Positions 3,775-25,178 of a stretch of 32,210 nt of DNA are shown piece by piece. The DNA is from Ruminococcus sp. (GTDB taxonomy: Bacteria; Bacillota; Clostridia; Oscillospirales; Acutalibacteraceae). The notes under the pieces are model-generated. The model worked only from the letters and a program-made list of their open reading frames with translations. It was not told the DNA's origin and made no database searches. The DNA lies in NCBI GenBank assembly GCA_017411385.1, contig JAFQQF010000001.1, positions 1 to 32,210 of the forward strand, given 5' to 3'. Both the position numbers and the translations under genes were made by a program. Position 1 is the stretch's first letter. Each line of letters opens with the position of its first letter.

Positions 3775-5643
3775 ATGTCCAAAACAAAGAAGATAATCAG
3801 CCTTGTTCTTGTTGCAATGCTGGTTATGGCAATGGCAACAGTTGCTGTTGTTACTACTTCTGCTCTTAGCGAAGGCGAAGTATACACAGTAGCTGGTCAG
3901 GCAGGTCTTTGCGGTTCCGATTGGAATCCCGCAGACTCTAACAACCAGATGACCTGGAATGCAGACGCTAGCGTGTATGAGAAGGTTTACACCAACGTTG
4001 CTGCTGGTACTTATAACTACAAGGTAGTAAGAGGTACTGAGTGGGGCGATGCATACACAGAGCTTGGTCCTGCAAACAGCATGGGTGACGACGGCGTTAT
4101 CGTTGTTGATGCTGACGGCTCTACTGTTACACTTACTTTCAACGGTAGCCTCGTAGTTATCAAGGTTGAAGCAGGTAGCGATGTTCCCACACCTACAGAT
4201 GCTCCCACACCTACAGACGCTCCTACACCCACAGATGCTCCTGTAGTAGGCGGTGACACAATCACTGTTTACTTCACAAACAACTGGGCTTTCTTAACTC
4301 AGAATGTTTACTGGTGGGGCAGCACAACAGGTGAGAATCCCGCTGAGTTCCCCGGTGTTGCAATGACATTTGTTGAGAAAACTGAGCTTGGCGAAGACAT
4401 CTACTCCGCTGAGATTCCTGCAGACGTTGCAGGTCTTGTATTCTCCGGTGCACATGATCAGCAGCCCGATGTTATCAGACAGACTGTTGACATCACAGAG
4501 GGTATTGTTGACAACGCTGGCTTCTACTGTGAGTCTGAGGTTGACGGCAAGATCACTGTTGGTACTTACACATATGAGGCACCCACAGACGAGCCCACAG
4601 CAGCTCCCACAGATGCTCCCGTAGTTACAGATGCTCCCACAGACGCTCCTGTAGTTACAGATGCTCCCACAGCAGCTCCCACAGATGCTCCTACACAGGC
4701 TCCCACAGTTGAGCCCACAGAGGCACCCACAGATGCTCCTGTAGCAGGCAACGGCATCACAGTTGACGGCAAGGTATACGATGTAAAGGTTGGCGACGTT
4801 GTTACTTACACAGTAGATGTTACAGCAGCAAGACTCTTCGAGAACATTCAGGCAGTTGTTAACTACGACGCTGACAAGCTCGAGCTCAAGCTCGTTACTT
4901 CTACTGATCCCGACCTCACAGACCTTGAGTTCCAGGCAGCAACATACTGCGAGAACATCAACGATGGTCTTATCTTCAACCCCGGCATCGAGGGCGCTGT
5001 TAAGTTCAACGCTTCCAAGGTAGCTGGTTACAACTTCAAGTCTGAGAAGACTCTTATCTACCTCACATTCGAGGTTAAGGATGCTTCCGCTTCCACAATT
5101 GGCATCGCTATCGAAGAGATGACAATCAAGGGTGACGGCTCCGAGTCTTACTTCGCAAACGGTCAGGCTGTTATCACAGACGGTATCTCAGTTGTTCAGA
5201 AGCTCGACGCTCCTCAGGCTGAGAAGCCCACACAGGCACCTACACAGGAGCCCACAGCTGAGCCCACAGTAGCTCCCACACAGGAGCCCACAGCTGAGCC
5301 CACAGTAGCACCTACACAGGAGCCCACAGCTGAGCCCACAGTAGCACCTACACAGGAGCCCACAGCTGAGCCCACAGTAGCTCCCACACAGGAGCCCACA
5401 GCTGAGCCCACAGTAGCTCCCACACAGGCTCCCACAGCTAAGCCCACAGATGCTCCTGTAGATCCTACAAAGGCTCCCACAGCTGTAGTAGATCCCACAT
5501 CTGATTCTCAGACAGCTTCCAGCACAACTGGCGGCACAGGCGCTCCCAACACAGGTGCAGCAGCTTACATCTACGTTGTAGTTGCAGTTCTTGCTATGGC
5601 AGCTTGCGCAGTAGTTGTTCTCCGCAAGAGAGTTAACGGCTAA
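3775..5643 (+). CDS. Cell-surface scaffoldin: X25 - CBM26-like - cohesin - APNTG anchor
   Basis: A 622-residue secreted protein. A signal peptide (about 1-31, Lys-rich start and hydrophobic core) is followed by an X25-type starch-binding domain (about 36-131; AGLCGSDWNPADSNNQMTW resembles pullulanase X25). Next is a short PTPTDAP linker, a CBM26-like module (about 161-267; YWW, FPGVAMTF, NAGFYC), a PT(D/A)AP linker, and a type I-like cohesin (about 326-475; motifs VTYTVDVTAARLFENIQAVV and YDADKLEL). Then comes a long linker with five 12-residue TQEPTAEPTVAP repeats. The tail is APNTG (590-594), a hydrophobic stretch and RKR, a sortase-type sorting signal. The inferred role is a wall-attached scaffoldin that binds starch and captures one dockerin protein. 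Codon use is strongly biased (CTC, TAC, AAC, GTT), which suggests high expression. It has its own promoter and terminator. Confidence 0.9.
   Translation: MSKTKKIISLVLVAMLVMAMATVAVVTTSALSEGEVYTVAGQAGLCGSDWNPADSNNQMTWNADASVYEKVYTNVAAGTYNYKVVRGTEWGDAYTELGPANSMGDDGVIVVDADGSTVTLTFNGSLVVIKVEAGSDVPTPTDAPTPTDAPTPTDAPVVGGDTITVYFTNNWAFLTQNVYWWGSTTGENPAEFPGVAMTFVEKTELGEDIYSAEIPADVAGLVFSGAHDQQPDVIRQTVDITEGIVDNAGFYCESEVDGKITVGTYTYEAPTDEPTAAPTDAPVVTDAPTDAPVVTDAPTAAPTDAPTQAPTVEPTEAPTDAPVAGNGITVDGKVYDVKVGDVVTYTVDVTAARLFENIQAVVNYDADKLELKLVTSTDPDLTDLEFQAATYCENINDGLIFNPGIEGAVKFNASKVAGYNFKSEKTLIYLTFEVKDASASTIGIAIEEMTIKGDGSESYFANGQAVITDGISVVQKLDAPQAEKPTQAPTQEPTAEPTVAPTQEPTAEPTVAPTQEPTAEPTVAPTQEPTAEPTVAPTQEPTAEPTVAPTQAPTAKPTDAPVDPTKAPTAVVDPTSDSQTASSTTGGTGAPNTGAAAYIYVVVAVLAMAACAVVVLRKRVNG
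5242..5421 (+). repeat. Five perfect-register 36-bp coding repeats (TQEPTAEPTVAP linker)
   Basis: Five tandem 36-bp units encode the same 12 residues and differ only by silent changes such as GTAGCTCCC versus GTAGCACCT. They form the linker between cohesin and cell-wall anchor. The array could gain or lose units by slippage, changing linker length without breaking the frame. Confidence 0.85.
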
Positions 5644-5689
5644 TTGCTGAATAAAAAATAGATAATTAAATCTAATTATTATGCTTTTT

Positions 5690-5721
5690 CGCCCCTTCGG
5701 TTCGCCGAGGGGGCGTTTTTT
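5690..5721 (+). terminator. Intrinsic terminator of the first scaffoldin
   Basis: An 11-bp GC-rich stem (one G:T pair) closed by a TTCG tetraloop, then six Ts. The same hairpin with the same upstream flank (TCTAATTATTATGCTTTTT) ends the paralogous gene at 9186. Confidence 0.95.
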
Positions 5722-6008
5722 GTTACTACGCAAATGAAGGATGTTGCTATGCAAACAAAGGATGTTGCTATGCAAACAAAGGATGTTGCTATGCAAACAA
5801 AGGATGTTGCTATGCAAACTGTTGCTATGTATACGACGTTACTATGCAAAGGGTGGTCTTTCTATGCGAACGATATTGCTACGCGAACGATGCCACTACG
5901 TAAATAGTGATGCTATGTAAAGAATGTTGTTACGCAAGCAATAATGCGATGCAAAAAGGGATACGCGTAAACGATGTTGCTAGGCAAAAGACGTTGCTGT
6001 GCATATGA
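5722..6008. repeat. 21-bp minisatellite with decayed flanks
   Basis: Three perfect copies of TTGCTATGCAAACAAAGGATG start at 5744, 5765 and 5786, with a partial fourth at 5807. Before and after these the same TTGCTA(T/C)GCAAA(C/A) core recurs at irregular spacing to about 6008 with many substitutions. The period is a multiple of three, so both strands give spurious repetitive ORFs, but there is no ribosome binding site or protein-like composition. I see no gene here. The function is unknown. Confidence 0.8.
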
Positions 6009-6113
6009 TTTGAATTCTGCCGAACTACTGATAATGCTGGGATATTTGAGCTTGCTGTTAGTTTGAACACCTCTGCTTTCACATAAAAATCATAATTGCG
6101 TTAAAATACGTGA

Positions 6114-6142
6114 TTGTATTTTCCTTTAAGATGTAGTATAAT
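6114..6142 (+). promoter_or_regulatory. Promoter of the membrane-anchored cohesin protein
   Basis: TTGTAT (6114-6119), 17-bp spacer, TATAAT (6137-6142), about 55 bases before the ATG at 6197. An AGGAGA ribosome binding site lies at 6185-6190. Confidence 0.75.
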
Positions 6143-6196
6143 ACTTATGTTTGGTCGGCTTGCGACCTATTAACATTACATATTAGGAGAGTTATT

Positions 6197-6976
6197 ATGA
6201 AAAAGTTTTCTAAAATCATCCTTCCTTTAATGCTGACTGTGGTGCTTGTTTGCTTGTCAATGGTGAACACCTTTGCCGCAGAGGTTCTTACAGTTAACGG
6301 CAAGGAGGCTGCTGTAGGCAGCGAGGTCACCTACACCTTCTCAATCGGTGCTGCTCAGCAGAGAATTTGCGGCATACATATGGTAATCTTCTTTGATCAG
6401 GACTTGCTTTCCCTCAAAGAGGTTAACACTGATAACCTTGGCGGTGGCACAATCGTTAATGACAACAAGGGCAACAACGGCAGAATCATCGTAACAAACA
6501 GCTTTGTTAACGGTACCTCGGGTCTTGACTGCAAAGAGTCAAAAGACATCGTGACTGTTACCTTTGAGGTTATTAAGGAAGGCACAACCGATATTACATA
6601 TTATATGCCTTATCTTTACGACATCGACTCTGTAAACATCTACGATTACACCTTTACCTGTGACCTTGCTGTTGACGGTCAGGCTGTGATTGAGGATGTT
6701 GCTCCTCCCCTTGAGGATGTAGCTCAGCTTCAGGATTTCGGCGATGCAGGTGACTTCGAAAATAACGAAGCAGGCACAGGTTCCGGCGAAAAGCCTGTGG
6801 CTCCTTCCGTTCAGAACACACCACAGGGTTCCTCCCAAGGCTCAGAGGGCAAGGGCGAGGGCTCAGGCATTGTTATTCCTATTGTTTGTGCAAGCGTTAT
6901 CCTTGTAGCAATCATCGTTCTGGTTGTTGTTAAATCTGTCACATCTAAAAAATCAGATAATGATGGTGAACAGTAA
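6197..6976 (+). CDS. Membrane-anchored single-cohesin protein
   Basis: A 259-residue protein. A signal peptide (about 1-28, ending TFAA) leads into a cohesin-like domain (about 29-165): VTYTFSIGAAQQRICGIHMVIFF with FDQDLLSL aligns with the VTYTVDVTAARLFENIQAVV / YDADKLEL region of the scaffoldin at 3775, but the sequence is clearly divergent. A short Gly/Ser/Glu linker and a transmembrane helix (about 225-248) with a charged SKKSDNDGEQ end follow. There is no starch-binding module, TDAP linker or APNTG signal, so it is probably held in the cell membrane rather than attached to the wall. The inferred role is to hold a dockerin partner close to the membrane, possibly with another specificity than the other two cohesins. 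Confidence 0.8.
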   Translation: MKKFSKIILPLMLTVVLVCLSMVNTFAAEVLTVNGKEAAVGSEVTYTFSIGAAQQRICGIHMVIFFDQDLLSLKEVNTDNLGGGTIVNDNKGNNGRIIVTNSFVNGTSGLDCKESKDIVTVTFEVIKEGTTDITYYMPYLYDIDSVNIYDYTFTCDLAVDGQAVIEDVAPPLEDVAQLQDFGDAGDFENNEAGTGSGEKPVAPSVQNTPQGSSQGSEGKGEGSGIVIPIVCASVILVAIIVLVVVKSVTSKKSDNDGEQ

Positions 6977-6992
6977 TCAGCTGTAATATACC

Positions 6993-7029
6993 AAGCCTTT
7001 CTCTGTAAGTGAGGAAGGCTTTTTGTTTT
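6993..7029 (+). terminator. Intrinsic terminator after the membrane cohesin gene
   Basis: An 11-bp stem (AAGCCTTTCTC with GAGGAAGGCTT, one G:T pair), 7-base loop and T-rich tail. Confidence 0.85.
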
Positions 7030-7070
7030 GCGATTGGTGAAAATGATTGTTTGGATAATTAGCCTCAATA

Positions 7071-7216
7071 AGCCCTCTTTAGGGAGGGAGCCAAAAGAGT
7101 CCTCCTCCGAGAGGAAATTCCACTGCTAGGGGAAATGTCGGCTTTGCCGACAAAAGGGTTGCCGTCTTTGCAGAAGAGGTGGCTGTGCGAAGCACAGACG
7201 GGAGGAGTGGGTTTTG
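7071..7216. repeat. Interspersed intergenic element, copy A (long form)
   Basis: A non-coding block opening with CCCTCTTTAGGGAGGGAGCC, with internal short palindromes (GTCGGCTTTGCCGAC at about 7139-7153 and TGTGCGAAGCACA) and a GGAGGAGTGGGTTTTG end. From recall, this composition is typical of small repeated elements scattered between genes in Ruminococcus- and Faecalibacterium-like genomes. No ORF or ribosome binding site supports a gene. Confidence 0.6.
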
Positions 7217-7250
7217 AAGTAAGAGGGAAGAAGTAATAGGTAATAGTTTG

Positions 7251-7304
7251 ACTCCCTCAGTCAAAACCTAGCGGTTTTGCCAGCTCCCTCTGGGAGGGAG
7301 CCTC
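7251..7304. repeat. Interspersed inverted-repeat element, copy B
   Basis: The ends CTCCCTC(AGTC) and GAGGGAGCCTC are complementary, and the middle holds AAAACCTAGCGGTTTT, itself a hairpin. The flanks are the same as in copy C. Confidence 0.65.
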
Positions 7305-7325
7305 ATTGGGGTTGGGGAAGGAATC

Positions 7326-7374
7326 ACTCCCTCAGTCAGCTTCGCTGACAGCTCCTCGGTGAGGGAGCCTCATA
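7326..7374. repeat. Interspersed inverted-repeat element, copy C
   Basis: The outer arms CTCCCTCAGTCAG and GGTGAGGGAGCCTCAT match copy B; the centre is a GTCAGC-TTC-GCTGAC hairpin instead of the AAAACC one. The shared arms and different centre suggest members of one element family. Confidence 0.65.
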
Positions 7375-7443
7375 AGGCTTGATATAATACTTAATTAGCA
7401 AGACATAAGATAAAAACTGTGCTGTAAAAAGTCAAAAACCATC

Positions 7444-7472
7444 TTGATTTTTTATATAGCATAGTATATAAT
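7444..7472 (+). promoter_or_regulatory. SigA-type promoter of the scaffoldin at 7530
   Basis: TTGATT (7444-7449), 17-bp spacer, TATAAT (7467-7472). It shares TTGATTTTTT and the downstream AATGC with the promoter at 3704, implying common regulation of the two scaffoldins. Confidence 0.85.
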
Positions 7473-7529
7473 ATAAATGCCGAAAATTCATTCGGTAGAA
7501 TAGTACTATTTTATTAGGAGGAATTGAAA

Positions 7530-9128
7530 ATGTCCAAAAAAATCATTAGTGTTCTTTTGGCACTCGTTATGGTCCTTGCAATTGGTACTGTAGCATTGGT
7601 ATCAGTTTCTGCTGATCTGGCATCTCTTCCTGAGAAGCCCGACAACACAAAGAGATACTTCTTCTACATGCCTGATCAGTGGCTCGATAACGACTACGCT
7701 GAAACCGCTGGTATCTACTGGTGGGAAGGCACAGATGCACACTCTGCATGGCCCGGCATCGAGGCTAACAAAGCAGATCATCACGGCGTTTACTACTACG
7801 ATGTTCCCTCAGATGTTACTAAGATCATCTGGAACAACCTTGTAGACGGTGGTAGAGAGCCTTCTCTTCCCATCTATCAGGCAGCTGTTCAGACAGTAAA
7901 CGTTTCCAGTGAGTACTACGATCCCGGTGACAGCGATGTTTACCCCGATGGTATTCCTGAGGAGGAAGGCTTCGATGGCATGATCTACGTTACTGACTGT
8001 GCACAGAAGAGCTACGATCCCTTTGGCGGTAAGCTCACATACGGCGGCGAGTGGTACTACTACTACGGCGACGGCGAGTACGGCACAGCTAAGAACAAGG
8101 CTGACGCTGAGGTTGTTTACTCTGATCCCGCTTTCAACCTTGATGAGTACGTAACTGATCCCGGTGATGGTCAGCCCACAGGCGAGCCCACAGCAGCTCC
8201 CACAGAGGCACCTACAGCTGAGCCCACAGAGGCACCTACAGCTGAGCCCACAGAGGCACCTACAGCAGCTCCTACAGCAGCTCCCACAGTTGAGCCCACA
8301 GAGGTACCCACAGCTTCTCCCACAGAAGCTCCCTCCAACACTGTTATCACAGTTGGCGGCAAGGATTATCCTGCACAGGTTGGCGACACTCTTACTTACA
8401 CAGTAGATGTTACAGCAGCAAGACTCTTTGAGAACATTCAGGCAGTTGTTAACTACGATCCTGAGAAGCTCGAGCTTCAGCTCATCACATCTGATGATCC
8501 CGACGTAGCTGACTGGGAAGTTCAGGGCCCTGAGTACTGCAAGAACCTCGATGGCGTTATCTTCAACGCTGGTATTGCAGGCACAGTTAAGTTCAACGCT
8601 TCCAAGGTTGCAGGTTACAACTTCAAGACTGAGGCTAACCTCATCACTCTTACATTCGTAGTTAAGGAAGATGCAGCTTCTGAGATTGCTATCTCCATCG
8701 AAGAGATGACAATCAAGGGCGGCAACGATTCTTACTTCACAAACGGTCAGCCCGCTATCACAGAGGGTATCACTGTTACAGAAACACTCACAGGCAACAC
8801 TGTTCCTGTAGAGCCTCCCACACAGGAGCCCACAGAGAAGCCCACAGAGGCTCCCACAGCTGCTCCTACAGAGAAGCCCACAGCTGCTCCCACAGAGAAG
8901 CCCACAGCTGCTCCTACAGCTAAGCCCACAGATGCTCCTGTTGATCCTACAAAGACACCCACAGCTGTTGTAGATCCTACATCTGATTCTAATGCTCCTG
9001 CTTCCAGCACAACTGGCGGCACAGGTGCTCCCAACACAGGCGCAGCAGCTTACATCTATGTTGTAGTTGCAGTTCTTGCTATGGCAGCATGCGCAGTAGT
9101 TGTTCTCCGCAAGAGAGTTAACGGCTAA
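7530..9128 (+). CDS. Cell-surface scaffoldin: starch-binding-like module - cohesin - APNTG anchor
   Basis: A 532-residue secreted protein. The ATG at 7530 is preferred because AGGAGG (7516-7521) lies 8 bases upstream; the in-frame TTG at 7524 is too close. A signal peptide (about 1-27, ending VSA) is followed by an aromatic-rich module (about 28-210; KRYFFYMPDQW, YWWEG, AWPGIEA, IIWNNLVDGG), which looks like the extended CBM26-type module of ruminococcal amylases. A PTEAP/PTAEP linker leads to a cohesin (about 270-420) almost the same as that at 3775 (VTAARLFENIQAVVNYD). A PTEKPTAAP linker and APNTG (500-504) with hydrophobic stretch and RKR follow. The role is inferred to match its paralog, with a different starch-binding front end. 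Codon bias suggests high expression. Confidence 0.9.
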   Translation: MSKKIISVLLALVMVLAIGTVALVSVSADLASLPEKPDNTKRYFFYMPDQWLDNDYAETAGIYWWEGTDAHSAWPGIEANKADHHGVYYYDVPSDVTKIIWNNLVDGGREPSLPIYQAAVQTVNVSSEYYDPGDSDVYPDGIPEEEGFDGMIYVTDCAQKSYDPFGGKLTYGGEWYYYYGDGEYGTAKNKADAEVVYSDPAFNLDEYVTDPGDGQPTGEPTAAPTEAPTAEPTEAPTAEPTEAPTAAPTAAPTVEPTEVPTASPTEAPSNTVITVGGKDYPAQVGDTLTYTVDVTAARLFENIQAVVNYDPEKLELQLITSDDPDVADWEVQGPEYCKNLDGVIFNAGIAGTVKFNASKVAGYNFKTEANLITLTFVVKEDAASEIAISIEEMTIKGGNDSYFTNGQPAITEGITVTETLTGNTVPVEPPTQEPTEKPTEAPTAAPTEKPTAAPTEKPTAAPTAKPTDAPVDPTKTPTAVVDPTSDSNAPASSTTGGTGAPNTGAAAYIYVVVAVLAMAACAVVVLRKRVNG

Positions 9129-9185
9129 TTGCAGTTTTAAAAGATAATATATAATTAGTTCCTATTTCTAATTATTATGCTTTTT

Positions 9186-9215
9186 CGCCCCTTCGGTTCG
9201 CCGAGGGGGCGTTTT
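9186..9215 (+). terminator. Intrinsic terminator of the second scaffoldin
   Basis: The same TTCG-loop hairpin as at 5690, with a shorter T run (TTTTCC). Its flank is shared with the first scaffoldin gene. Confidence 0.92.
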
Positions 9216-9283
9216 CCTTTTGTGTTTATCATAAGATATTTTACTTCTGCATAAGATACTATGTATAAATATGTGGGAGGCGG

Positions 9284-10384: not shown

Positions 10385-10398
10385 GCATTTGCTATAAT
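10370..10398 (+). promoter_or_regulatory. Promoter overlapping the spoIIP 3' end
   Basis: TTGCAA (10370-10375), 17-bp spacer, TATAAT (10393-10398). It drives the gene at 10443 and probably dusB and glyA independently of sporulation control. Confidence 0.75.
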
Positions 10399-10442
10399 AA
10401 ATTAATAATAGGGAAGTATGTGTGTTTGGAGTTTTGAATTAA

Positions 10443-10976: not shown

Positions 10977-10977
10977 T

Positions 10978-14668: not shown

Positions 14669-16972
14669 ATGAAAACAAAAAGTGTTAAAATCTTATCCTT
14701 TGTGCTGGTACTGTTGCTTGTATTAACAGCTCTGCCTTTTTCTGTTATGGCAGACTCCTTTGTGGTAGCAGGGGAGAAGTTTGATTATGAGCTTAATGAA
14801 GAAGGTACATACACAATCACAGGCTATGACGGCGAGGACGAGGTACTTCAGATTCCTGCATACATTGATGATATTGCAGTAACCGAGCTTTCGCCTCACT
14901 CTTTATATAATGATATTGAGGGTTATAAGCTGATAATCCCCGAAACTATCAAGAAGATTGGCGGGAATGCTTTGACCTGCAGTAACCTCACAGAGATAGA
15001 GGTGCACCCCGACAATGAATTCTTCTGCGACGTTGACGGTGTGCTTTTTGATAAAGACGTTACCACGCTTATATACTATCCCGAAGACAGAGTGGAGCTT
15101 TCTTATACTGTGCCTTCGACTGTTACCGAGATAGGAGCTTATGGATTCCATTACGGCGGACAGCTTGAAAAAATCACATTACCCGAGGGGCTCAAAGTAT
15201 TGGGAGAACGTGCCTTTTATTTTGTTGACACCCTGAAAGAGATTAATATGCCCGAAACCTTGGAATCTATCGGCTCAGGAGCATTTATAGGCTGTAGCGA
15301 GCTTATAGCTGTTCGTGTTCCCGATAGTGTTACAGAGCTTGGATGGGGTGCTTTTGATTCCTGCACCAATCTTCAGAGTATATATTTTGGAAGCGGAATA
15401 CAGAGCGTGAATAACGAGCTTCTTACAGGTTGTTCATCTCTTATGAATATCACTGTAGCCGAGGACAGTCAGGTGTTCAGTGTTGAGGATGGAGTGCTTT
15501 TTAACAAGGACAAAACTGAGCTTATCAAATACCCTAGTGCAAAAGCAGATAAAAACTACACCGTTCCCGCTACTGTAAAAACCATCAAGACAGAAGCTTT
15601 TTCTCACGTTACTCAGCTAGAGAATATTACCATTCCTGAGGGTGTGGAAACACTTGAGGAGTCGGCTTTCTGGAGTTGTGATGAATTAAGATTTGTCAAG
15701 ATACCGGACAGCGTTACATCTATGGGCTACGGCTTTTCAAATTGTAAAAAGCTTGAGCGTGTTTTTATAGGCAAGAATGCTAATGTTATAGATATGCACT
15801 CCACATTTGCAGACTGTGATTCATTGATTGCAATTGACGTGGATGAAGAAAATCCCTACTGTGCATCGGTGGATGGTGTACTTTATAATAAGGATGTTAC
15901 CAAGATAATCAAGTTTCCTAAGGGCCTTGATATGAAGTCTTATAAGCTTCCTCTAACTGTTAAAGAGGTTTATTATCCTGCTTTTGCAGATCAGGAAGAC
16001 TACTACGATGAGTTTTATGAAAATCTGGAAATTTACGTTGACGATTGTCTTTTAGAGTATGATTATCAGGATAAGGGGAATATTGTTGTAAAGACAGGTA
16101 CCCGTGTTATCGGTTCTCATGCTTTCTGGGCAGAAAGCCAGATATGGGGAATTTCTCTGCCTGAGGAGATAAGATACATCGGAAGTATGGCTTTCAGTTG
16201 CATGGATATGCTGCAGGCAATTTATATTCCTGCAGGTGTTAAGTATATAGGTACCGATGCTTTCTGGGTAAGTGATATTTGCTATGACATTTATTACGGC
16301 GGAAGTGAGTCCCAGTGGAAGAGTATTGAAAATATTGAAAATGCAGAGATTCCCGAGTATGCTACCATTCATTTCAACAGCGAGGGCAATGAGTTTGTAA
16401 ACCCTGTTTTCCCCGAGGATGAGTATGATTACGAATACTCTAACCCTGAGCTGGGCATATCTGTTTTTACAGATACAGATGCGCAACTGAATGCAGATAA
16501 CATTACAAGCGAAGAGCTGGTGGCTTCTGTGGATGAGCTTCTTCCCAAGGCTACGGTTGAGGCTGTATACGAGATTAATCTCAGCCGCGATGGCGAAGAG
16601 ATTCAGCCTGAGGACAGGGTCGTTGTAAAAATCCCAACAAACAACAGATTTGCCAGAGTCTACAGAATGGAAGAGGATGGCACGCTGACTGATATGAACG
16701 CAGAATACAGAGGAGGGTATCTTGTGTTCTACACAGACCATTTCAGCCTCTATACTCTTGCACAGAAGGTTGCCTCTTTATATGAGTGCGGTGATGTGAA
16801 TATGGACGAAAACGTTAATATCAAGGATGCTACTGCCGTTCAGAAGTACACAGCTTCGCTGATTGAATTGGAGGATGGGGTGCTGAGCTTCCTTGCTGAT
16901 TTTGATAAAAACAAAGAGGTTAATATCAAGGATGCAACCTCCATTCAGAAATTCATTGCAGGACTTATCTAG
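14669..16972 (+). CDS. Secreted BspA-type leucine-rich-repeat protein with C-terminal dockerin
   Basis: A 767-residue protein. A signal peptide (about 1-28, ending VMA) precedes a long array of ~23-residue BspA-like LRR_5 repeats (about 50-560; recurring pattern IP..V..IG..AF..C..L, and three 'VDGVLF/YNKDVTxL' insertions). Next is a beta-rich domain (about 590-700; ending YLVFYTDHFSLYTL). A type I dockerin follows (about 708-767): two calcium loops, DVNMDENVNIKD and DFDKNKEVNIKD, each followed by A(T)xxQK. BspA repeats commonly mediate protein, mucin or glycan contact. The dockerin predicts incorporation into the amylosome through a cohesin such as those at 3775-9128. There is no catalytic motif. 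It is a monocistronic gene with its own promoter and terminator. The ligand is unknown. Confidence 0.9.
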   Translation: MKTKSVKILSFVLVLLLVLTALPFSVMADSFVVAGEKFDYELNEEGTYTITGYDGEDEVLQIPAYIDDIAVTELSPHSLYNDIEGYKLIIPETIKKIGGNALTCSNLTEIEVHPDNEFFCDVDGVLFDKDVTTLIYYPEDRVELSYTVPSTVTEIGAYGFHYGGQLEKITLPEGLKVLGERAFYFVDTLKEINMPETLESIGSGAFIGCSELIAVRVPDSVTELGWGAFDSCTNLQSIYFGSGIQSVNNELLTGCSSLMNITVAEDSQVFSVEDGVLFNKDKTELIKYPSAKADKNYTVPATVKTIKTEAFSHVTQLENITIPEGVETLEESAFWSCDELRFVKIPDSVTSMGYGFSNCKKLERVFIGKNANVIDMHSTFADCDSLIAIDVDEENPYCASVDGVLYNKDVTKIIKFPKGLDMKSYKLPLTVKEVYYPAFADQEDYYDEFYENLEIYVDDCLLEYDYQDKGNIVVKTGTRVIGSHAFWAESQIWGISLPEEIRYIGSMAFSCMDMLQAIYIPAGVKYIGTDAFWVSDICYDIYYGGSESQWKSIENIENAEIPEYATIHFNSEGNEFVNPVFPEDEYDYEYSNPELGISVFTDTDAQLNADNITSEELVASVDELLPKATVEAVYEINLSRDGEEIQPEDRVVVKIPTNNRFARVYRMEEDGTLTDMNAEYRGGYLVFYTDHFSLYTLAQKVASLYECGDVNMDENVNIKDATAVQKYTASLIELEDGVLSFLADFDKNKEVNIKDATSIQKFIAGLI

Positions 16973-17345: not shown

Positions 17346-19166
17346 ATGGTAAGAAGAAAGCATCGACTGATGTCGCTTCTGCTTACTGTGCTTATGGTTC
17401 TGTCCCTTGCAACAATTGCAACAACAGCTTCTGTCAGTGCAGCAAATGGCGACACGGTCTATTGCCAGAACGACAAGAACTGGGGCGAAGTTTACTGCTA
17501 CATGTGGACTGACGACTCCAACAAGAACGCCCAGTGGCCCGGCGTTAAGATGACAAAGGGCGAGGGTAATCTCTGGTCCTACAAAGTTACCGGCGATTGG
17601 GGAAACATCATCTTCAATAACGGTCAGGGCGACCAGACAGGTGATATGACTCATCAGGGTAACGGCAGTTGCTACAACAACTCAAACGGCAACTGGTCAA
17701 AGATTGATACTCCTGAGCCTTCCAATCCCACCAATCCCACCAATCCTACCAATCCCACAACCCCCACACCTTCAAATCCCACTCCCTCTAATCCTACAGG
17801 TAAGAACGTGGTTTACTGCAAGAACGAAGCAGGCTGGGGCAAAGTAAGTATTTACATGTGGACAGACGGACAGGGAGATAACAAATCATGGCCCGGCGTT
17901 GACGCAACAAACATCGGTGACGATGTTTGGATGCTTGAGTACGACAAAGACTATGCAAAGATTATCTTCAACAACGGCAGCGACCAGGCAAAGACCGGCG
18001 ACCTTGAACATCCCGGTTCAGGTTATATCTACAACAACAGCAATGGTAAATGGGATATTTATGACCCCACTATGCTCCGTATTGTCAGCACAAAAGCTAA
18101 CCCCGACTCTCCTCAGTACACAGGCGTTGACGTTAAGCTTTCAATTGAGGCAGCAGGCGGTGAAGGAGCTCTCCTTTATAAGTTCTCTGCAAACAGCACA
18201 GTTATCAGCGATTATTCCGCTAACAGCTCTGTTGTGTGGACTCCCACTCAGGCAGGCAATTATACAATCAAGTATGAAATAAAGGATGAAACAGGCAACA
18301 CAAAGTCTGAAACCGCTTCCTTTACAGTTAAGGATATCACTACTGAGAAGGCTCCTGTTGTTCAGAAGGTTGATGTTACTCCCACAAATGCTCAGAAGAA
18401 TGAAATTCAGAAGGGCAAGGAGGCAACTGTTGATATTACAGCAGGCGGCGGTAAGACAGGTACAAACCTGCTCTTCTATAAGGTTAAGATTACCGACCCT
18501 GCAGGTAATACAGCAAACGTTCCCTACTACACAACAAAGGACGTTTACAAGTTTACACCTGCTACTCTCGGTACATATACAATCGAAGTTTCAGTTCAGA
18601 ACTCAGATAACACAACTGAGGTAAGAACCTACGAATACGAAAGCGTATCTGAGCTTTCAGCACCCGGTGAGCTTTCATTAAGCCTTAAGTCTGCAGGTAA
18701 GACTCAGGTAGGTTCTACTGTTACTGTTACAGCTTCTGCTTCCGGCGGTACTGCTCCCTACACCTATCAGTTTAAGGTAGGCGGCCAGATCGTTAAGGCT
18801 TACTCTTCTGCTTCTTCCTATGCATTGGAGCTTACTAAGGCAGGCAACTATGTCGTTGAGGCTACAGTCAAGGATGCAGCAGGCAAGACAGCTACGAAAT
18901 CTGTTACAATAACAGCAACTTCCGCTGATAACCCCAATCCCAGTAACCCCTCTGGATCTGTTGATATGGCAATTAAGGGTGACGCAGACTGTGACACAGC
19001 AGTAAATATCAAGGATGCTACAAAGATTCAGAAGCACCTTGCTTCCCTCGAAACCCTTTCAGCACAGGGTGCAATTAACGCTGAGGTTGACGGTGACGGC
19101 AACATCACTATCAAGGATGCAACTATGATTCAGAAGCACATTGCAGGTATGGATGTAAATTGGTAA
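17346..19166 (+). CDS. Secreted double-CBM26 starch-binding protein with dockerin
   Basis: A 606-residue protein without a catalytic domain. A signal peptide (about 1-33, ending VSA) is followed by a CBM26-type module (about 36-120; VYCQNDKNWGEVYCYMW, WPGVKMTK, IIFNNG), an NPT/TPSNPT linker, and a second CBM26 (about 153-240; VVYCKNEAGWGKVSIYMW, SWPGVDA). Three consecutive immunoglobulin-like beta domains follow (about 243-330, 335-440 and 443-530; YTIKYEIKDETGNT and YVVEATVKDAAGKT are typical strands), then an NPNPSNPSG linker and a type I dockerin (about 545-606; loops DADCDTAVNIKD and DGDGNITIKD followed by A(T)xIQKH). The inferred role is to bring starch to the surface scaffoldins. It is the first gene of an operon with the two amylases; the next ATG is 13 bases after its stop. 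Confidence 0.93.
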   Translation: MVRRKHRLMSLLLTVLMVLSLATIATTASVSAANGDTVYCQNDKNWGEVYCYMWTDDSNKNAQWPGVKMTKGEGNLWSYKVTGDWGNIIFNNGQGDQTGDMTHQGNGSCYNNSNGNWSKIDTPEPSNPTNPTNPTNPTTPTPSNPTPSNPTGKNVVYCKNEAGWGKVSIYMWTDGQGDNKSWPGVDATNIGDDVWMLEYDKDYAKIIFNNGSDQAKTGDLEHPGSGYIYNNSNGKWDIYDPTMLRIVSTKANPDSPQYTGVDVKLSIEAAGGEGALLYKFSANSTVISDYSANSSVVWTPTQAGNYTIKYEIKDETGNTKSETASFTVKDITTEKAPVVQKVDVTPTNAQKNEIQKGKEATVDITAGGGKTGTNLLFYKVKITDPAGNTANVPYYTTKDVYKFTPATLGTYTIEVSVQNSDNTTEVRTYEYESVSELSAPGELSLSLKSAGKTQVGSTVTVTASASGGTAPYTYQFKVGGQIVKAYSSASSYALELTKAGNYVVEATVKDAAGKTATKSVTITATSADNPNPSNPSGSVDMAIKGDADCDTAVNIKDATKIQKHLASLETLSAQGAINAEVDGDGNITIKDATMIQKHIAGMDVNW

Positions 19167-19179
19167 GGAGGAATAAAAA

Positions 19180-21624
19180 ATGAGTAAAATAAAAAGAATA
19201 TCCGCATTTATACTCGTTTTCATCCTTACTGTTTCCATAGGTATAGTTGGTGTTTATGCCGCTGAGGAGGATTTGGCTGATGTTTCAGCTGCTTCTGACA
19301 AAGCCGGCATTACCGTATACTTTAAATGTGAGAATAAAACTCCCTATGTTTATTACTGGAATGCATTGCCTCAGAATATTGAGGTGGAATATCCCGGTGT
19401 CAAGATGACACTTGATGCAAGCCAGGAAGGTGGAAACTGGTATAAATACACCTTTGAAAATTCCACAAAGATCAATATGCTTTTTACAGACGGAACCGCT
19501 GAGCTTGATGGCCAGCTGTCCTCTGAGCTTTCACGTACATCAGGCGAATGGTGGTACAAAGACGGCAAGTGGCGTGGCAGAAACCCCGACCTTCCCGATG
19601 AGTACGACCCCTCCGATATGCGTGAGGACACTATCTATTTCGTAATGACAACCCGTTTCTATGACGGCGACAAGGGTAACAACGTTTTTTGCTGGGATGA
19701 CGGACAGGCAGGAAATGCTCCTGTAGATAGTGAAGGAAAAATAATCTATGATCAAGGCGGTGACCATGCATGGCGAGGTGATTTTAAAGGCCTTGCCGAT
19801 AAGCTTGATTATATCAAGGCTTTGGGATTTTCCGCTGTATGGATTACTCCTGTTGTAACAAACGCATCGGGTTATGACTACCACGGCTACCATGCTATGG
19901 ACTTCTCAACCGTTGATGTTCGTTACGAGTCCGATGATTTCACTTACGAAGATCTTATTCAGGCTGCACACGACAAGGATATGAAGATTATTCAGGACGT
20001 TGTGTGGCAGCACACGGGTAACTTTGGTGAGGCTTTCTTCTGTCCTGTGTTCGAGAAGGACACAAACAAGAATTTGGGAAATCTTGAGGAATGCATGGTT
20101 CCCACAGATTTGCTCCTTGATACCTTCGGACTTTCTTCTCCTGAAGAGTATTATGCTCAGCAGCCCTTCCTACAGTATCAGCAAAGACTTGGTATGATGA
20201 AAGACTTAACATATCCCGGCGAGGTTGGAAACAGCAAGGGTACACATCCTGATGATTCCGACTACGATATAATAAAGCTTTCTTCAAGTGATACCTACAA
20301 CGTAAATAACTACTATCATTCAGGTTATTGGCAAAGTCCCAACTGGGATGACTGGACAACAAAGTTCTGTCAGATTGCAGGTGACTGCGTAGACCTTAAT
20401 ACAGAAAACCCTGCAGTAGCAGAATATATTGTAGATTGCTATTCCAAGTACCTTGAAATGGGCGTAGACGGCTTCCGTGTTGACACAGTGCGCCATATTC
20501 CCAGACTTACTCTGAATATGATGTATAACACTCAGATGCACGATGCTGCAAAGGACGCAGGTAACAACAACTTTATGATGTTCGGTGAAATCTGCACAAG
20601 ATATACTCAGGTTTGGTACAGAGATCACGCTGAAGAGTCAACTCCTTACTACACATGGGCCGAGTCCAACAGTAAGTGGGCAAAGGCTTGGAGTATGGAT
20701 ACTACCCGCGAAGCAATCAACAATAATATGAATCTGGTGTTTGACCATTACCGCGAAGAAGATAGCGTTCACGATGAGCCTACATCACAGAACGCTTTCC
20801 TCAATGGTATTACCTATCGTACACCTGATACCTCCAGAGCATCAGGTATGACAGCAATCGACTTCCAGATGCACAGAATGTTCGGTAATGCACGTAATGC
20901 TTACGGCATTGCACTTAGCAGTGACAAGTATTACAATGATGCGACTTGGAACGTAATGTATGTTGATTCTCACGACTACGCACCTGAACAGCCTCAGGAA
21001 TCCACAAGATTCTCAGGTGGCACACAGGCATGGGCTGAGAACCTTTCGCTTATGTTTACATTCCGCGGTATTCCTTGTGTGTACTATGGCTCTGAGGTTG
21101 AGTTCAAGAAGGGTGCACCCATTGACGTTGGTCCCAATGCTCCACTTGAAACAACAGGCCGTGCATACTTCGGCGATTACCTTGAGGGTACTGTTACCGC
21201 TACTGATTTCTCAGAATTCACAGCCTCCGGTAAGGTTGCAGAAACTCTGAACTCAACACTTTCAAAGCACATTGCAAAGCTCAATGCTGTTCGTCGTGCT
21301 GTACCTGCTTTGCAGAAGGGTCAGTATACAACAGACTCCAAGTACGTATCCGGTAATATGGCATATGTCCGCCGCTTTACAGATGCTAAGGAGGGTATTG
21401 ACAGCTTGGCACTTGTAACTGTTTCCGGCGGTGCAACATTCAAGGGCATACCCAATGGAAAGTACATTGATGCTATCACAGGTGATGTTCAGAATGTTAC
21501 AAACGGAACGCTCACGGTTCCCTCTATCGGCACAGCTAACGCAAGAGTTTACGTTTGTTGTGCATCAGGTTTCACAGGCATCACAGGTGCTGTTGGTGAA
21601 ACAGGTCTTACTTACCTTAAATAA
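19180..21624 (+). CDS. Secreted GH13 alpha-amylase with N-terminal starch-binding module (region I Asn replaced by Gln)
   Basis: An 814-residue enzyme expected to cut alpha-1,4 bonds of starch. A signal peptide (about 1-25) precedes a CBM26-like module (about 43-125; VYYWN, YPGVKMT, INMLFTDG). The GH13 barrel runs from about 150 (TIYFVMTTRFYDGDKGNN). The catalytic residues read as nucleophile Asp435 (GVDGFRVDTVRH), acid/base Glu470 (MMFGEICTR) and Asp599 (VDSHDY). Region I is DVVWQH (272-277 plus His278): the usual Asn, a calcium ligand in well-studied alpha-amylases, is Gln277. The tandem paralog keeps Asn. A beta domain C closes the protein at GLTYLK. No dockerin and no anchor are present. 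AAGGAGG precedes the ATG. It is probably active but possibly with altered calcium need; a specialised role is equally open. Confidence 0.93.
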   Translation: MSKIKRISAFILVFILTVSIGIVGVYAAEEDLADVSAASDKAGITVYFKCENKTPYVYYWNALPQNIEVEYPGVKMTLDASQEGGNWYKYTFENSTKINMLFTDGTAELDGQLSSELSRTSGEWWYKDGKWRGRNPDLPDEYDPSDMREDTIYFVMTTRFYDGDKGNNVFCWDDGQAGNAPVDSEGKIIYDQGGDHAWRGDFKGLADKLDYIKALGFSAVWITPVVTNASGYDYHGYHAMDFSTVDVRYESDDFTYEDLIQAAHDKDMKIIQDVVWQHTGNFGEAFFCPVFEKDTNKNLGNLEECMVPTDLLLDTFGLSSPEEYYAQQPFLQYQQRLGMMKDLTYPGEVGNSKGTHPDDSDYDIIKLSSSDTYNVNNYYHSGYWQSPNWDDWTTKFCQIAGDCVDLNTENPAVAEYIVDCYSKYLEMGVDGFRVDTVRHIPRLTLNMMYNTQMHDAAKDAGNNNFMMFGEICTRYTQVWYRDHAEESTPYYTWAESNSKWAKAWSMDTTREAINNNMNLVFDHYREEDSVHDEPTSQNAFLNGITYRTPDTSRASGMTAIDFQMHRMFGNARNAYGIALSSDKYYNDATWNVMYVDSHDYAPEQPQESTRFSGGTQAWAENLSLMFTFRGIPCVYYGSEVEFKKGAPIDVGPNAPLETTGRAYFGDYLEGTVTATDFSEFTASGKVAETLNSTLSKHIAKLNAVRRAVPALQKGQYTTDSKYVSGNMAYVRRFTDAKEGIDSLALVTVSGGATFKGIPNGKYIDAITGDVQNVTNGTLTVPSIGTANARVYVCCASGFTGITGAVGETGLTYLK

Positions 21625-21641
21625 TCATTTCTTTTAATACT

Positions 21642-21678
21642 GCATAGCATCGCAGTACAAATCTCTGCGATGCTATGC
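21642..21678 (+). other. 14-bp intercistronic hairpin between the two amylase genes
   Basis: GCATAGCATCGCAG (21642-21655) and CTGCGATGCTATGC (21665-21678) pair perfectly around a 9-base loop. No T run follows, so it does not look like a simple terminator. It may stabilise or process the operon mRNA and set the ratio of the two enzymes. Confidence 0.75.
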
Positions 21679-21736
21679 GAAATAACAAACCTTAGCCTGT
21701 AAGGCTTAAATTAAGAAAAAAGGAGGATAGATACCG

Positions 21737-24052
21737 ATGAAGCATATTAAGTCCATTGTAGCTCTTGTGCTTTGCTTTGCTCTTTGCCTTGGTATTGGTG
21801 TAGTTGCTGCATTTGCCGCTGAAGAGGAAGTTGCAGAAACAGGTGCTGCAGGTATAACTATCCATTATTATCACGAGGGCGGTGTTCCTTACCTTTACTA
21901 CTGGAACACTATGCCTCAGAACATGGAAACTGCTTATCCCGGTGTTAAGATGTCAGCAGATACTGCATCAGGTGCAAACTGGTATAAGTACAGCTTCCCC
22001 ACATGTTCAAAAATCAATCTTATGTTTACAGACGGCTCCAACAAGCTTTCAGGTCAGCTCACTTCTGAGCTTACCAGAAATGCTGCAGGCGACTGGTACT
22101 ACAAAGACGGCAAATGGAGCAAAACTCCCAATCCCGATCCCGTTACACGTACAGACTTCCGTGAGGAGTCCATTTACTTCGTAATTACAACCCGTTTCTA
22201 CGATGGTGACAAGGGTAACAACGTTTTTTGCTGGGATGATGGAAAGGCGCAAAACGCTCCTGTAGATAATAATGGAAATATATTATTAAATCAAGGCGGT
22301 GACCATGCATGGCGAGGCGACTTTAAGGGCCTTGCTGAAAAGCTGGATTATATCAAAGCTCTTGGTTTCTCCGCTATCTGGATTACTCCCGTTGTAGAGA
22401 ACGCTTCAGGTTACGACTACCACGGCTATCATGCCTTTGACTTCGGCAAGGTTGACCCAAGATATGAGTCCTCCGACTTTACATATCAGGACCTTATTGA
22501 TGCTGTTCACGAAAAAGGCATGAAGCTTGTTCAGGACGTAGTTTGGAATCACACAGGTAACTTCGGCGAAGCTTGGCTTGAGCCTCTCTTTACAAAAGAG
22601 TACGACGAAATTCAGGACCTTAGCTATGCCAGCAGTATGAAGGTTAAGCCCGGCTCAGCACTTGCACAGCATTATCCAAACTATGACAACCTTGATGCCG
22701 GTCTTCAGTTCCAAGCAAGACTTGACTGTCTGAAAGCTCACAAGAGCGGTCCCAATAGCCAGCTCAACAAGAAGGAGCACTATCACCGTGAAACAGGAAT
22801 GGGTTATGAATCACCCATTGAGCAGCAGGGCTCTATGGCTGGTGACTGCGTTGATATCAACACAGAGAACCCAGAGGTTGCAAAGTACATCACAGATACA
22901 TACCTTGAGTATGTAGATATGGGCGTTGATGCTTTCCGTCTTGATACAGAGAAGCACATCAACCGCTGGACTCTCAACAGTGCTTACTTCCCTGCATTCC
23001 AGGGCATTAAGAACTTCTACATCTTCGGTGAGGTTTGCTCACGTGTTCGTGAAACATGGAACCACAATATCCCCTCATCTTCACCTGCGTTCTTCACATG
23101 GAAAGAAACAAGCTCTGCTTGGATTGGCAACTGGGATACAACAAGCCCCACAGCTAACATTCAGAAGTCTATCAACCATTACGAGGCTTACAATAACCCC
23201 AATGGTGCTCCCACTTCTTCCAATGCATTCCTCAATGGTATCAAGTACCACACACCCGACTACTCCAAGTCCAACGGCACAGGTGTTATCGACTTTACAA
23301 TGCACTGGAACTTCGAGAATGCATACAATGCTGTAAGAGCAGGTTATGCTGAGGACCAGTATTTCAACGATTCCACATGGAACGTTATGTATGTTGACTC
23401 TCACGACTACGGTCCCGACGGTATGGAGAAAACACGTTACAGTCAGGGTACACAGGCTTGGGCTGAGAACCTGAACCTTATCTTCACCTTCCGCGGTATT
23501 CCCTGTGTATACTACGGCACTGAGATTGAGTTCTGTAAGGACCTTCCCATTGACGTTGGTCCCAACGCTCCCCTTGCAAAGACAGGCCGCGCATACTTAG
23601 GTGACCATCTTGAAGGTACAGTTAATGCAACAGATTTTAGCAAGTACACAGCTTCAGGTACTGTTGCAAATACTCTGAACTCCACTCTTTCCAAGCATCT
23701 CCAGAAGCTTAATGCTATCCGCCGTGCTATACCTGCTCTGCAGAAGGGTCAGTATACACACGATGGTGCATATGTTCAGGGGGGAGAGATGTCTTACATC
23801 CGTCGTTACACAAACGCTTCTGAGGGCGTTGACAGCCTTGCTTGCGTAGCAGTAACAGACGGCGCAACCTTCAAGAACCTTCCCAACGGCAAGTACATTG
23901 ATGCAGTTACAGGTGATGTTAAGAACGTTACAAACGGTACACTCACGGTTTCCTCCACAGGTAGAGGTAATATGAGAGTATACGTTTGCTGTGCATCAGG
24001 GCTTCACAGGAATCAGTGGCGCAATCGGTCCTGCAGGCCAGACTTACCTTAA
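21737..24052 (+). CDS. Secreted GH13 alpha-amylase with N-terminal starch-binding module (3' frameshift suspected)
   Basis: As it stands 771 residues. A signal peptide (about 1-28, ending AFA) precedes a CBM26-like module (about 36-115; HYYHEGGVPYLYYWN, YPGVKMS) and a GH13 catalytic barrel from about 137 (SIYFVITTRFYDGDKGNN). Catalytic residues: region I DVVWNH (267-272) intact, nucleophile Asp403 (GVDAFRLDTEKH), acid/base Glu432 (YIFGEVCSR) and Asp557 (VDSHDY). Domain C closes the protein. It is a tandem duplicate of the gene at 19180. The last 19 codons differ: after YVCCASG the frame continues LHRNQWRN..., but removing one G of the GGG at 23999-24001 restores GFTGISGAIGPAGQTYLK with a stop at 24054-24056, matching the paralog's GFTGITGAVGETGLTYLK. 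The intact gene would therefore be 21737-24056. It has no dockerin. Confidence 0.92.
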   Translation: MKHIKSIVALVLCFALCLGIGVVAAFAAEEEVAETGAAGITIHYYHEGGVPYLYYWNTMPQNMETAYPGVKMSADTASGANWYKYSFPTCSKINLMFTDGSNKLSGQLTSELTRNAAGDWYYKDGKWSKTPNPDPVTRTDFREESIYFVITTRFYDGDKGNNVFCWDDGKAQNAPVDNNGNILLNQGGDHAWRGDFKGLAEKLDYIKALGFSAIWITPVVENASGYDYHGYHAFDFGKVDPRYESSDFTYQDLIDAVHEKGMKLVQDVVWNHTGNFGEAWLEPLFTKEYDEIQDLSYASSMKVKPGSALAQHYPNYDNLDAGLQFQARLDCLKAHKSGPNSQLNKKEHYHRETGMGYESPIEQQGSMAGDCVDINTENPEVAKYITDTYLEYVDMGVDAFRLDTEKHINRWTLNSAYFPAFQGIKNFYIFGEVCSRVRETWNHNIPSSSPAFFTWKETSSAWIGNWDTTSPTANIQKSINHYEAYNNPNGAPTSSNAFLNGIKYHTPDYSKSNGTGVIDFTMHWNFENAYNAVRAGYAEDQYFNDSTWNVMYVDSHDYGPDGMEKTRYSQGTQAWAENLNLIFTFRGIPCVYYGTEIEFCKDLPIDVGPNAPLAKTGRAYLGDHLEGTVNATDFSKYTASGTVANTLNSTLSKHLQKLNAIRRAIPALQKGQYTHDGAYVQGGEMSYIRRYTNASEGVDSLACVAVTDGATFKNLPNGKYIDAVTGDVKNVTNGTLTVSSTGRGNMRVYVCCASGLHRNQWRNRSCRPDLP

Positions 24053-24083
24053 ATAATTCCTACTAAATAAATCCTTTAGAATT

Positions 24084-24116
24084 CAGCGTACTGGGAAATA
24101 CTCAGTACGCTGATTT
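24084..24116 (+). terminator. Terminator of the amylase operon
   Basis: A perfect 10-bp stem (CAGCGTACTG / CAGTACGCTG) with a 9-base loop and a short weak T tract. Confidence 0.65.
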
Positions 24117-24118
24117 GT

Positions 24119-24142
24119 ATGCTTCCCCTTAAGGAGGGGCTG
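24119..24142. repeat. Relic of an interspersed inverted-repeat element
   Basis: CTTCCCCTTAAGGAGGGGCTG is a small palindrome of the same C-rich / G-rich type as the elements at 7071-7374. It is probably the end of a decayed copy. Confidence 0.35.
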
Positions 24143-24266
24143 TGTATTATAGTAATGTGTCTACACCTTGGAGCAATCCTTAGGTTTTGGCACAAGGGGT
24201 TGATTTGTGTAAAAATAAGCCCTTCATTTTTGTGCAAAACGATGCAACTAATATTTGTAAAAAGTA

Positions 24267-24295
24267 TTGCAGTTTTGAAACTTTTGTAGTATAAT
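24267..24295 (+). promoter_or_regulatory. Promoter of the secreted protein at 24345
   Basis: TTGCAG (24267-24272), 17-bp spacer, TATAAT (24290-24295). AGGAGG lies at about 24331-24336, ahead of the ATG. Confidence 0.8.
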
Positions 24296-24344
24296 CATTG
24301 ATGACGAGTAGAATCTCGAGATATTTTTTAGGAGGTACAATCCA

Positions 24345-25178
24345 ATGCTTAAGAAAATTCTTTGCTTTGCTATGATTCTTGTTATGGTAGCAAGCATGGC
24401 TGTTATCGGCGTTTCCGCTGCTGACACCAAAGTTTACTTCGAAGTTCCCGAAGACTGGAACAACTACAAGTTCGTATACTGCCACATCTTCCCCTATGGC
24501 GGCGGCGATCCCCTCGCTAACTGGCAGTCCAAGAAGGAGCAGGCAACTCTCGTTGAGGGTCGTCTTTATTCCTACGATATCGTTGCTAAGGTTAAAGGCC
24601 TTGAGGCTGGCAAAACCTACGGTATCATCTTCAGCCTTGACACAGGTATGGAAACATACACAACTCTTATGACAACAGCTTGCTACGGCGACACACTTTA
24701 CTGCAACGACACATTCTATGAGAATCCTGTTGACTCTTCAAAGACTAGCCGTGCAGCATTCTGGAAGAACCACTCTGCTTCTGAGTACGGCCCCCTCATG
24801 CAGGTAACATCCATCGGTAACATCGTTGGTACTTGCATTGCTCCCGGTGCAACAGCTAAGTCCATGTTCTCCGACTTCCTCGCAAACAGCTTTGACGATG
24901 CTCAGACATACTCCGGTAAGGACGATCAGGCTATCATCGACGATATCGCAAAGATCCTCGGTCTTTCTCAGGATACAGTTGAGAGCCTCATCAAGGAGTC
25001 CGGTATCACTTGTGGCTGGGAGAAGGCTAAGTCTGAGGCTCCCAAGGAAGATCAGGCTATCAACAAGGACGCTATCGCAACAGGTCAGGAGACAACAATC
25101 GTTTACATTGCACTTGCAATGATGCTTGCTTCTGCAGCAGTTGTTTTCTTCGCACGCAAGAAGAGAGTTACTGAGTAA
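24345..25178 (+). CDS. Secreted, membrane/wall-anchored protein with starch-binding-like N-domain, unknown function
   Basis: A 277-residue protein I do not recognise as a named family. A signal peptide (about 1-26, ending VSAA) is followed by an aromatic-rich beta-type domain (about 28-165; VYFEVPEDWNNYKFVYCHIF, NWQSKKEQATLVEGRLYSYD, TYGIIFSLDTG), whose pattern recalls carbohydrate-binding modules. A helical segment (about 166-235; FSDFLANSFDDAQTY, DDIAKILGLSQDTVESLIKE) follows. The C-terminus is ATGQE, a hydrophobic helix and FARKKRVTE. The tail resembles a sortase-like or simple membrane anchor, but ATGQE is not a good LPXTG. Codons are strongly biased to the set used by the scaffoldins, suggesting an abundant product. 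It has its own promoter and terminator, next to the amylase operon. A starch-sensing or starch-binding surface protein is only an inference from context. Confidence 0.75.
   Translation: MLKKILCFAMILVMVASMAVIGVSAADTKVYFEVPEDWNNYKFVYCHIFPYGGGDPLANWQSKKEQATLVEGRLYSYDIVAKVKGLEAGKTYGIIFSLDTGMETYTTLMTTACYGDTLYCNDTFYENPVDSSKTSRAAFWKNHSASEYGPLMQVTSIGNIVGTCIAPGATAKSMFSDFLANSFDDAQTYSGKDDQAIIDDIAKILGLSQDTVESLIKESGITCGWEKAKSEAPKEDQAINKDAIATGQETTIVYIALAMMLASAAVVFFARKKRVTE

Follow-up and report, generated by a model that had tools for sequence, protein, structure and literature searches.

The amylosome of Ruminococcus bromii is the closest described counterpart of the locus reported here, which lies on a 32,210-nucleotide stretch of DNA from Ruminococcus sp. 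(assembly GCA_017411385.1, contig JAFQQF010000001.1). This stretch, hereafter the window, is a whole contig. In the parts of PMC5814915 and PMC9112005 that were covered (a scope that holds wherever these papers or PMC6118326 are cited), the amylosome consists of scaffoldins that combine cohesins with starch modules and tails of the sortase type, and of dockerin proteins that include five dockerin-bearing GH13 enzymes encoded in the genome, alongside enzymes of the Amy1 and Amy2 type that lack a dockerin. The genome described here is like it in all of these respects, although its scaffoldin tails are putative sorting signals. With 52 dockerins and 7 cohesins, it also belongs with the genomes, known from R. 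albus and R. bromii (PMC6118326), in which dockerins are numerous and cohesins few, and no feature that distinguishes it from them was found. A third point of reference is Sas20 of R. bromii, whose domain 1 is available as PDB 7RAW and 7RFT.

The genome to which the window belongs is fragmented (2.1 Mb, 62 contigs, 93% complete). We consider it very likely that the window carries an amylosome-type cell-surface starch locus from an uncultured gut bacterium of the R. bromii genus, for which we take the name to be Ruminococcus_E. The locus resembles the known starch complex of R. bromii and is a further example of a known machine, not a new kind. A sequence-only reading had proposed three cohesin proteins, two dockerin proteins, CBM26/X25 modules, and two GH13 amylases in this stretch, and profile searches recovered all of them, with CohA, CohB, and CohC matching cohesin models and P5 and P6 matching dockerin models. 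Its reading of these parts as amylosome-like was supported by comparison with a genome of the same genus that we infer to be R. bromii. The features are as follows.

3 to 1358, + strand: first open reading frame (ORF), which runs in from the contig start and encodes the C-terminal portion of a starch-binding protein (X25-like module and two CBM26; CBM26 97.9 bits)
3775 to 5643, + strand: CohA, with X25, a CBM26-like module, PT linkers, one cohesin (4753 to 5193), and an APNTG sorting-like tail (profile matches)
5690 to 5715, + strand: terminator-like hairpin 3' of CohA, same sequence as the hairpin 3' of CohC
6197 to 6976, + strand: CohB, small, with one cohesin (6287 to 6685) and a C-terminal transmembrane segment (profile, model, and fold matches)
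7530 to 9128, + strand: CohC, with starch-binding-like N-terminal modules, PT linkers, one cohesin (8343 to 8777), and a CohA-type tail (profile matches)
9186 to 9211, + strand: terminator-like hairpin 3' of CohC
14669 to 16972, + strand: P5, a BspA-type leucine-rich repeat (LRR) protein with a C-terminal dockerin (16790 to 16957; profile matches)
17346 to 19166, + strand: P6, with two CBM26, Ig-like domains, and a C-terminal dockerin (18975 to 19142); ortholog of R. bromii Doc22 (profiles and comparison)
19180 to 21624, + strand: AmyA, a CBM26-GH13 amylase without a dockerin, Amy1-like (64% identical to its homolog in the inferred R. bromii genome)
21737 to 24052, + strand: AmyB, a CBM26-GH13 amylase without a dockerin, Amy2-like (59% identical to its homolog in the same genome)
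24345 to 25178, + strand: P9, a Sas20-domain-1-like starch-binding surface protein with a TGQE sorting-like tail (PDB and model matches)

Surface and dockerin proteins of the locus

The cohesin group is separated from the dockerin and amylase group by SpoIIP, Dus, GlyA, and RarA. CohA and CohC are probably wall-anchored scaffoldins, each with starch-binding modules and one cohesin. CohA has an X25 module, and the CBM26-like module of CohC, whose frame is also opened by a TTG at 7524, is below cut-off; searches of both whole proteins against the PDB by sequence gave matches chiefly to low-complexity linkers. The two cohesins are 69% identical to each other and 26 to 31% identical to that of CohB. 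CohA and CohC seem to have arisen by duplication of a whole transcription unit, since they have in common a promoter-like site (TTGATT-17-TATAAT), identical 26-base hairpins, and 3' ends with 94% identity over 143 bases. CohB has a hairpin of its own, and the window contains 11 terminator-like sites compared to 4.8 (standard deviation 2.2) in shuffles. Three sortase genes in the genome are above cut-off. Directly 3' of the CohA hairpin, positions 5721 to 5819 hold 4.7 tandem copies of a 21-base unit; a 15-base piece of this unit (at most one mismatch) occurs in four places genome-wide, all within this array.

CohB is predicted to be a small membrane-anchored protein with one cohesin. This cohesin was missed by plain hmmscan and was above cut-off in a six-frame search. 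CohB had no credible match in the PDB by sequence, and the same was true of the transmembrane cohesin protein of the inferred R. bromii genome. The predicted model of the CohB cohesin matches solved cohesins in Foldseek (structural re-alignment covered Foldseek's own matches only). The best of these is 7URP, which represents the second of the Sca5 cohesins of R. bromii and binds the Sas20 dockerin in that species (PMC9112005).

P9 is like Sas20 domain 1 both by sequence (E 1e-19 to 7RFT/7RAW) and by fold, as its predicted model (mean predicted local distance difference test score 73.8) matches 7RFT and 7RAW with E 4.5e-14 and 6.5e-14. It has the layout of that family, a CBM26-like sandwich followed by a helical bundle. 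Whereas Sas20 has a second starch domain and a dockerin, P9 bears a putative surface-anchor tail, which is kept in nine aligned sequences. Relatives of P9 lie 3' of AmyB in 8 of 52 loci compared (L041, L042, L044, L045, L046, L050, L052, and L060). Furthermore, two congeners (G026 and G096) encode a Sas20-domain-1 module fused to a cohesin plus a membrane or anchor tail, and these fusions tie the P9 domain to the same surface system.

The truncated ORF at the window start probably encodes the C-terminal end of a third dockerin protein, with the dockerin itself on another contig, C45. A dockerin/CBM26 ORF (dockerin at 19648 to 19806) that leaves the end of C45 is 59% identical to it over 222 columns. 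At the equivalent place, the related genome G100 has a whole gene of 1424 amino acids (aa) with an N-terminal dockerin and with C-terminal modules as in the first ORF, followed 3' by genes for a cyclase-like protein, HAD, QueH, and then CohA. The likeness of the C45 ORF and the intact ortholog together suggest that a third dockerin protein probably heads the locus. The end of C45 and the start of the window have eight bases in common, read by eye, which is weak evidence. Elsewhere in the window, an ordinary thiamine pyrophosphate riboswitch (27775 to 27889) lies 5' of a thiamine transporter gene.

Conservation of gene order

Relatives were drawn from a set of 161 genomes of the genus. One of these, G123, is inferred to be R. 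bromii because it is 100% identical to R. bromii Amy16 (PDB 9qf9) over 90 residues, has 27 Pfam dockerins, equal to the 27 published for R. bromii, and has ORFs of 804, 548, 550, and 751 aa, the published sizes of Amy1, Doc22, Doc14, and Amy2 (PMC9112005).

The grouping of genes in the window had been called notable on the grounds that the genes of R. bromii are mostly dispersed. G123, which has two blocks, does not support this. The first, on contig C37 (L224), begins with an anchored cohesin protein whose gene is truncated at the contig start, followed by a 294-aa transmembrane cohesin protein (27% identical to CohB), a CBM-like anchored protein that has no cohesin and is 31% identical to CohC, and an anchored cohesin protein of 545 aa that shares 44% identity with the N-terminal part of CohC. 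Its three cohesin ORFs lie within 5.5 kb and follow the order predicted for the window: anchored, transmembrane, anchored. In the second block, on C34 (L228), a 550-aa dockerin ORF is followed by RarA, a 548-aa P6 homolog, and an 804-aa amylase; these sizes and the neighbouring locus numbers in a published table fit Doc14, Doc22, and Amy1 (PMC9112005), and a Doc22-like protein adjoins an Amy1-like gene in both genomes. In view of the cluster on C37, we rejected the idea that the scaffoldin genes of R. bromii are all dispersed. However, the other four of the seven cohesin matches in G123 are spread over four contigs, and "partly dispersed" is a fair description. In the literature covered, which does not include the founding amylosome paper, we found no description of the clustering or of the Doc22–Amy1 pairing, and we do not claim that either is absent from print.

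Similar clusters occur in other congeners. The cohesin clusters of G032 and G034 each begin with a whole gene that has two cohesins; that of G034 is Sca5-like, matching the solved Sca5 pieces 7RPY, 7URP, and 7UVG. In the single-contig genome G124, cohesin ORFs of 1053, 283, and 573 aa lie within 4.5 kb and other cohesin matches are at least 97 kb away. A CohB-type match was found in 80 of 100 genus genomes, including that of the window, and at least 20 of these 80 have another cohesin no more than 10 kb from it, an unsystematic lower bound counted by eye among the matches listed, many of the genomes being fragmented. We regard the clustering as largely ancestral. The cluster lies beside SpoIIP, as in the window, in G100 and G094, and near QueH, again as in the window, in G020, G088, G094, and G100; it lies elsewhere in G026, G096, G123, G032, and G034, and the short contigs of G111 and G010 do not show its position.

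Near relatives such as G100 and G094 have the two blocks united in the same way, whereas the inferred R. bromii genome does not. Relative to G123, the window is distinguished by having the cohesin block and the RarA–Doc22–Amy1-type block on one stretch and by the position of AmyB beside AmyA, since the Amy2-like gene of G123 is on a different contig from the C34 block. Other differences from the R. bromii amylosome, as far as the sources describe it, are the number of dockerins (52 compared to 27), the single cohesin of CohA compared to two in Sca5, the apparent duplication of CohA and CohC, and the placement of a Sas20-domain-1 module on a putatively anchored protein.

G100 additionally encodes, between the genes for GlyRS and a phosphoribosyltransferase, a 1044-aa protein (L239:2054-5188) with starch-module-like repeats, three cohesins, and a C-terminal dockerin, a polyvalent adaptor of a kind unreported for R. 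bromii in the literature covered. The same two genes in the window are separated by 274 bases with no gene between. In the single-contig genome G090, one 1603-aa ORF has five cohesin matches (contig 1, 984744 to 986981).

Cohesins and dockerins across the genome

Pfam alone finds three cohesins in the genome, all in the window, but this picture had to be abandoned: a protein query adds three (one on C10 and two on C43), and a 21-sequence profile adds four, for a total of seven (CohA, CohB, CohC, one on C10, a pair within a single ORF on C43, and one on C56). Two is the highest number of cohesins per ORF found in this fragmented, approximately 93% complete genome. Besides CohB, the genome has two small one-cohesin proteins, of which one ends in a transmembrane tail and the other begins like a lipoprotein (L233:6163-6942 and L175:4086-4757).

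Dockerins are far more numerous, with 52 Pfam matches at E 0.001 (51 marked above cut-off). The window accounts for 3 of the 7 cohesins and for 2 of the 52 dockerins. All 52 dockerin proteins were scanned with Pfam, 50 at E 1e-4 and the two in the window at E 0.01. In counts that overlap, GH13 was found in 5 proteins, CBM26 in 14 (one below cut-off), LRR_5 in 7, CotH, peptidases, and CHAP in 4 each, calcineurin-like phosphoesterase in 2, and esterase, GDSL, and GH25 in one each. Two more match other glycosidase models, namely MGH1-like and GH65 C-terminal. None of the five dockerin-bearing GH13 enzymes is encoded in the window. Amylases of the Amy4 type combine a cohesin with a dockerin; the Amy4-like ORF of this genome is truncated at 1051 aa by a contig end.

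By motif, 41 of the dockerins are KDAT-IQK-like in both repeats, 7 are of a second kind, 2 are mixed, and 2 are other. Five of the second kind are on C59 (L094, L100, and L104) and two on C52 (L105); the proteins on these contigs include CotH and C-type lectin/CHAP types. CBM26 and a dockerin also occur together in two calcineurin-like phosphoesterases and one esterase encoded outside the window (L123:4247-7345, L128:4215-7550, and L127:4856-6379), which are candidates for taking phosphate or other esters off starch.

Amylases without dockerins

The sequence-only reading implied that the amylases of the window dock through their own dockerins. This fails because neither AmyA nor AmyB has one. 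Indeed, no dockerin was found in any of 76 amylase ORFs compared (72 from 49 of the 52 loci, three loci yielding none, and 4 from G123 and G032), and a search of 14 amylases for a hidden dockerin or cohesin found none at E 10. We also rejected a special docking tail on AmyA and AmyB, as the C-terminal ending ...G.IG...YLK is present in homologs from Treponema and Lachnospiraceae; amylase loci of these groups have no dockerin partner. AmyB departs from the register of the conserved C-terminal ending of the relatives compared in its final residues, which resembles a frame change and could be a sequencing error or a recent mutation.

Among the 76 amylase ORFs, 25 have a dockerin ORF directly 5', which in 20 cases is no more than 19 bases away (13 bases between P6 and AmyA), 3 begin at a contig edge, and many others are preceded by an amylase of the same operon. 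In R. bromii, EDTA (ethylenediaminetetraacetic acid) washes were enriched in Amy1, Amy2, and Doc22, with Doc22 spectra showing a small rise on galactose, from 12 to 16.5, and a clear one on amylopectin, from 6 to 53 (PMC9112005).

For these two amylases we think it probable that they are free secreted enzymes kept near starch by their own CBM26 and that P6 is merely co-expressed, which is compatible with an amylosome. Both enzymes have CBM26, and Amy2 of R. bromii appears in the EDTA wash as Amy1 does although its gene in G123 has no dockerin gene directly 5'. The spacing of dockerin and amylase ORFs, on the other hand, is tighter than co-regulation needs. The joint rise of Amy1, Amy2, and Doc22 in the EDTA wash suggests a second possibility, in which the conserved secreted Amy1/Amy2-type amylases of the R. 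bromii genus would be bound in trans by a dedicated dockerin/CBM26/Ig partner (P6 or Doc22) that plugs them into surface cohesins. We hold this to be doubtful, given the behaviour of Amy2 and the small rise of Doc22 on galactose. If true, the amylosome would have a two-step docking mode, with one adaptor serving enzymes that lack a dockerin.

Discussion

We propose that P6, the LRR protein P5, and probably the product of the truncated first gene would dock on CohA, CohB, CohC, and the few other cohesins of the genome. Approximately 49 dockerin proteins encoded elsewhere, including the five with GH13, would dock likewise and be held at the cell surface beside starch. A complex-prediction method able to rank such pairs is reported to reach F1 0.87 on R. 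bromii (PMC12997984). AmyA and AmyB would be secreted with their own CBM26, and their operon partner P6 may keep both at the surface, while P9 would supply an additional anchored starch-binding site. This reading draws on the presence of cohesins in proteins with starch modules or predicted anchors, the dockerins of P5 and P6, the GH13 and CBM26 domains among the 52 dockerin proteins, the three sortase genes, the kinship of P9 with Sas20 domain 1 and its cohesin fusions in G026 and G096, and the orthologous blocks in G123 and congeners.

Several observations weigh against it. The absence of dockerins from AmyA and AmyB is one. The sorting signals are another, all of them below curated cut-offs: the APNTG tail of CohA, a type also present on CohC, matches the NCBIfam NPXTG model at 19.8 bits (cut-off 23.5) and the tail of P9 matches a Pfam anchor model at 17.1 bits (cut-off 20). 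In addition, 38 of the 52 dockerin proteins have no CBM26 at the scan thresholds, and many have LRR, CotH, peptidase, or CHAP domains. With two kinds of cohesin and two of dockerin, some of the anchors could serve other cargo.

In a rival reading, CohA, CohB, and CohC would be general display anchors for adhesins, proteases, and wall enzymes, with the amylase genes as neighbours by history and not by function. We judge this improbable, even though most dockerin proteins have no starch domain by Pfam, the cohesin cluster is away from the amylase block in G123, G026, and G096, and the hairpin pattern marks the cohesin genes as separate transcription units. CohA has an X25 module and CohC a CBM26-like one, two congeners have the Sas20-domain-1 module fused to a cohesin, and LRR-dockerin proteins of R. 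bromii are listed among its EDTA-eluted amylosome proteins (PMC9112005). A cellulosome or mucinolysome works by the same cohesin–dockerin principle, and the sister genome G100 has its three-cohesin protein with a dockerin, but such a complex is highly unlikely here, as no cellulase or xylanase family was found among the 52 dockerin proteins at the Pfam thresholds used, GH13 and CBM26 are recurrent, and no ORF in this fragmented, approximately 93% complete genome was found with more than two cohesins.

An amylosome in this bacterium would extend the system, well studied in a single species, to relatives that live in ruminant guts. The parts that persist as blocks are the cohesin cluster and Doc22 paired with Amy1. 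The published puzzle that Amy1 and Amy2 of R. bromii appear in the EDTA wash without dockerins (PMC9112005) gains a named candidate partner. Finally, Sas20 domain 1 emerges as one starch-binding module that occurs in proteins of three sorts, those with dockerins, those with putative anchors, and those with cohesins.

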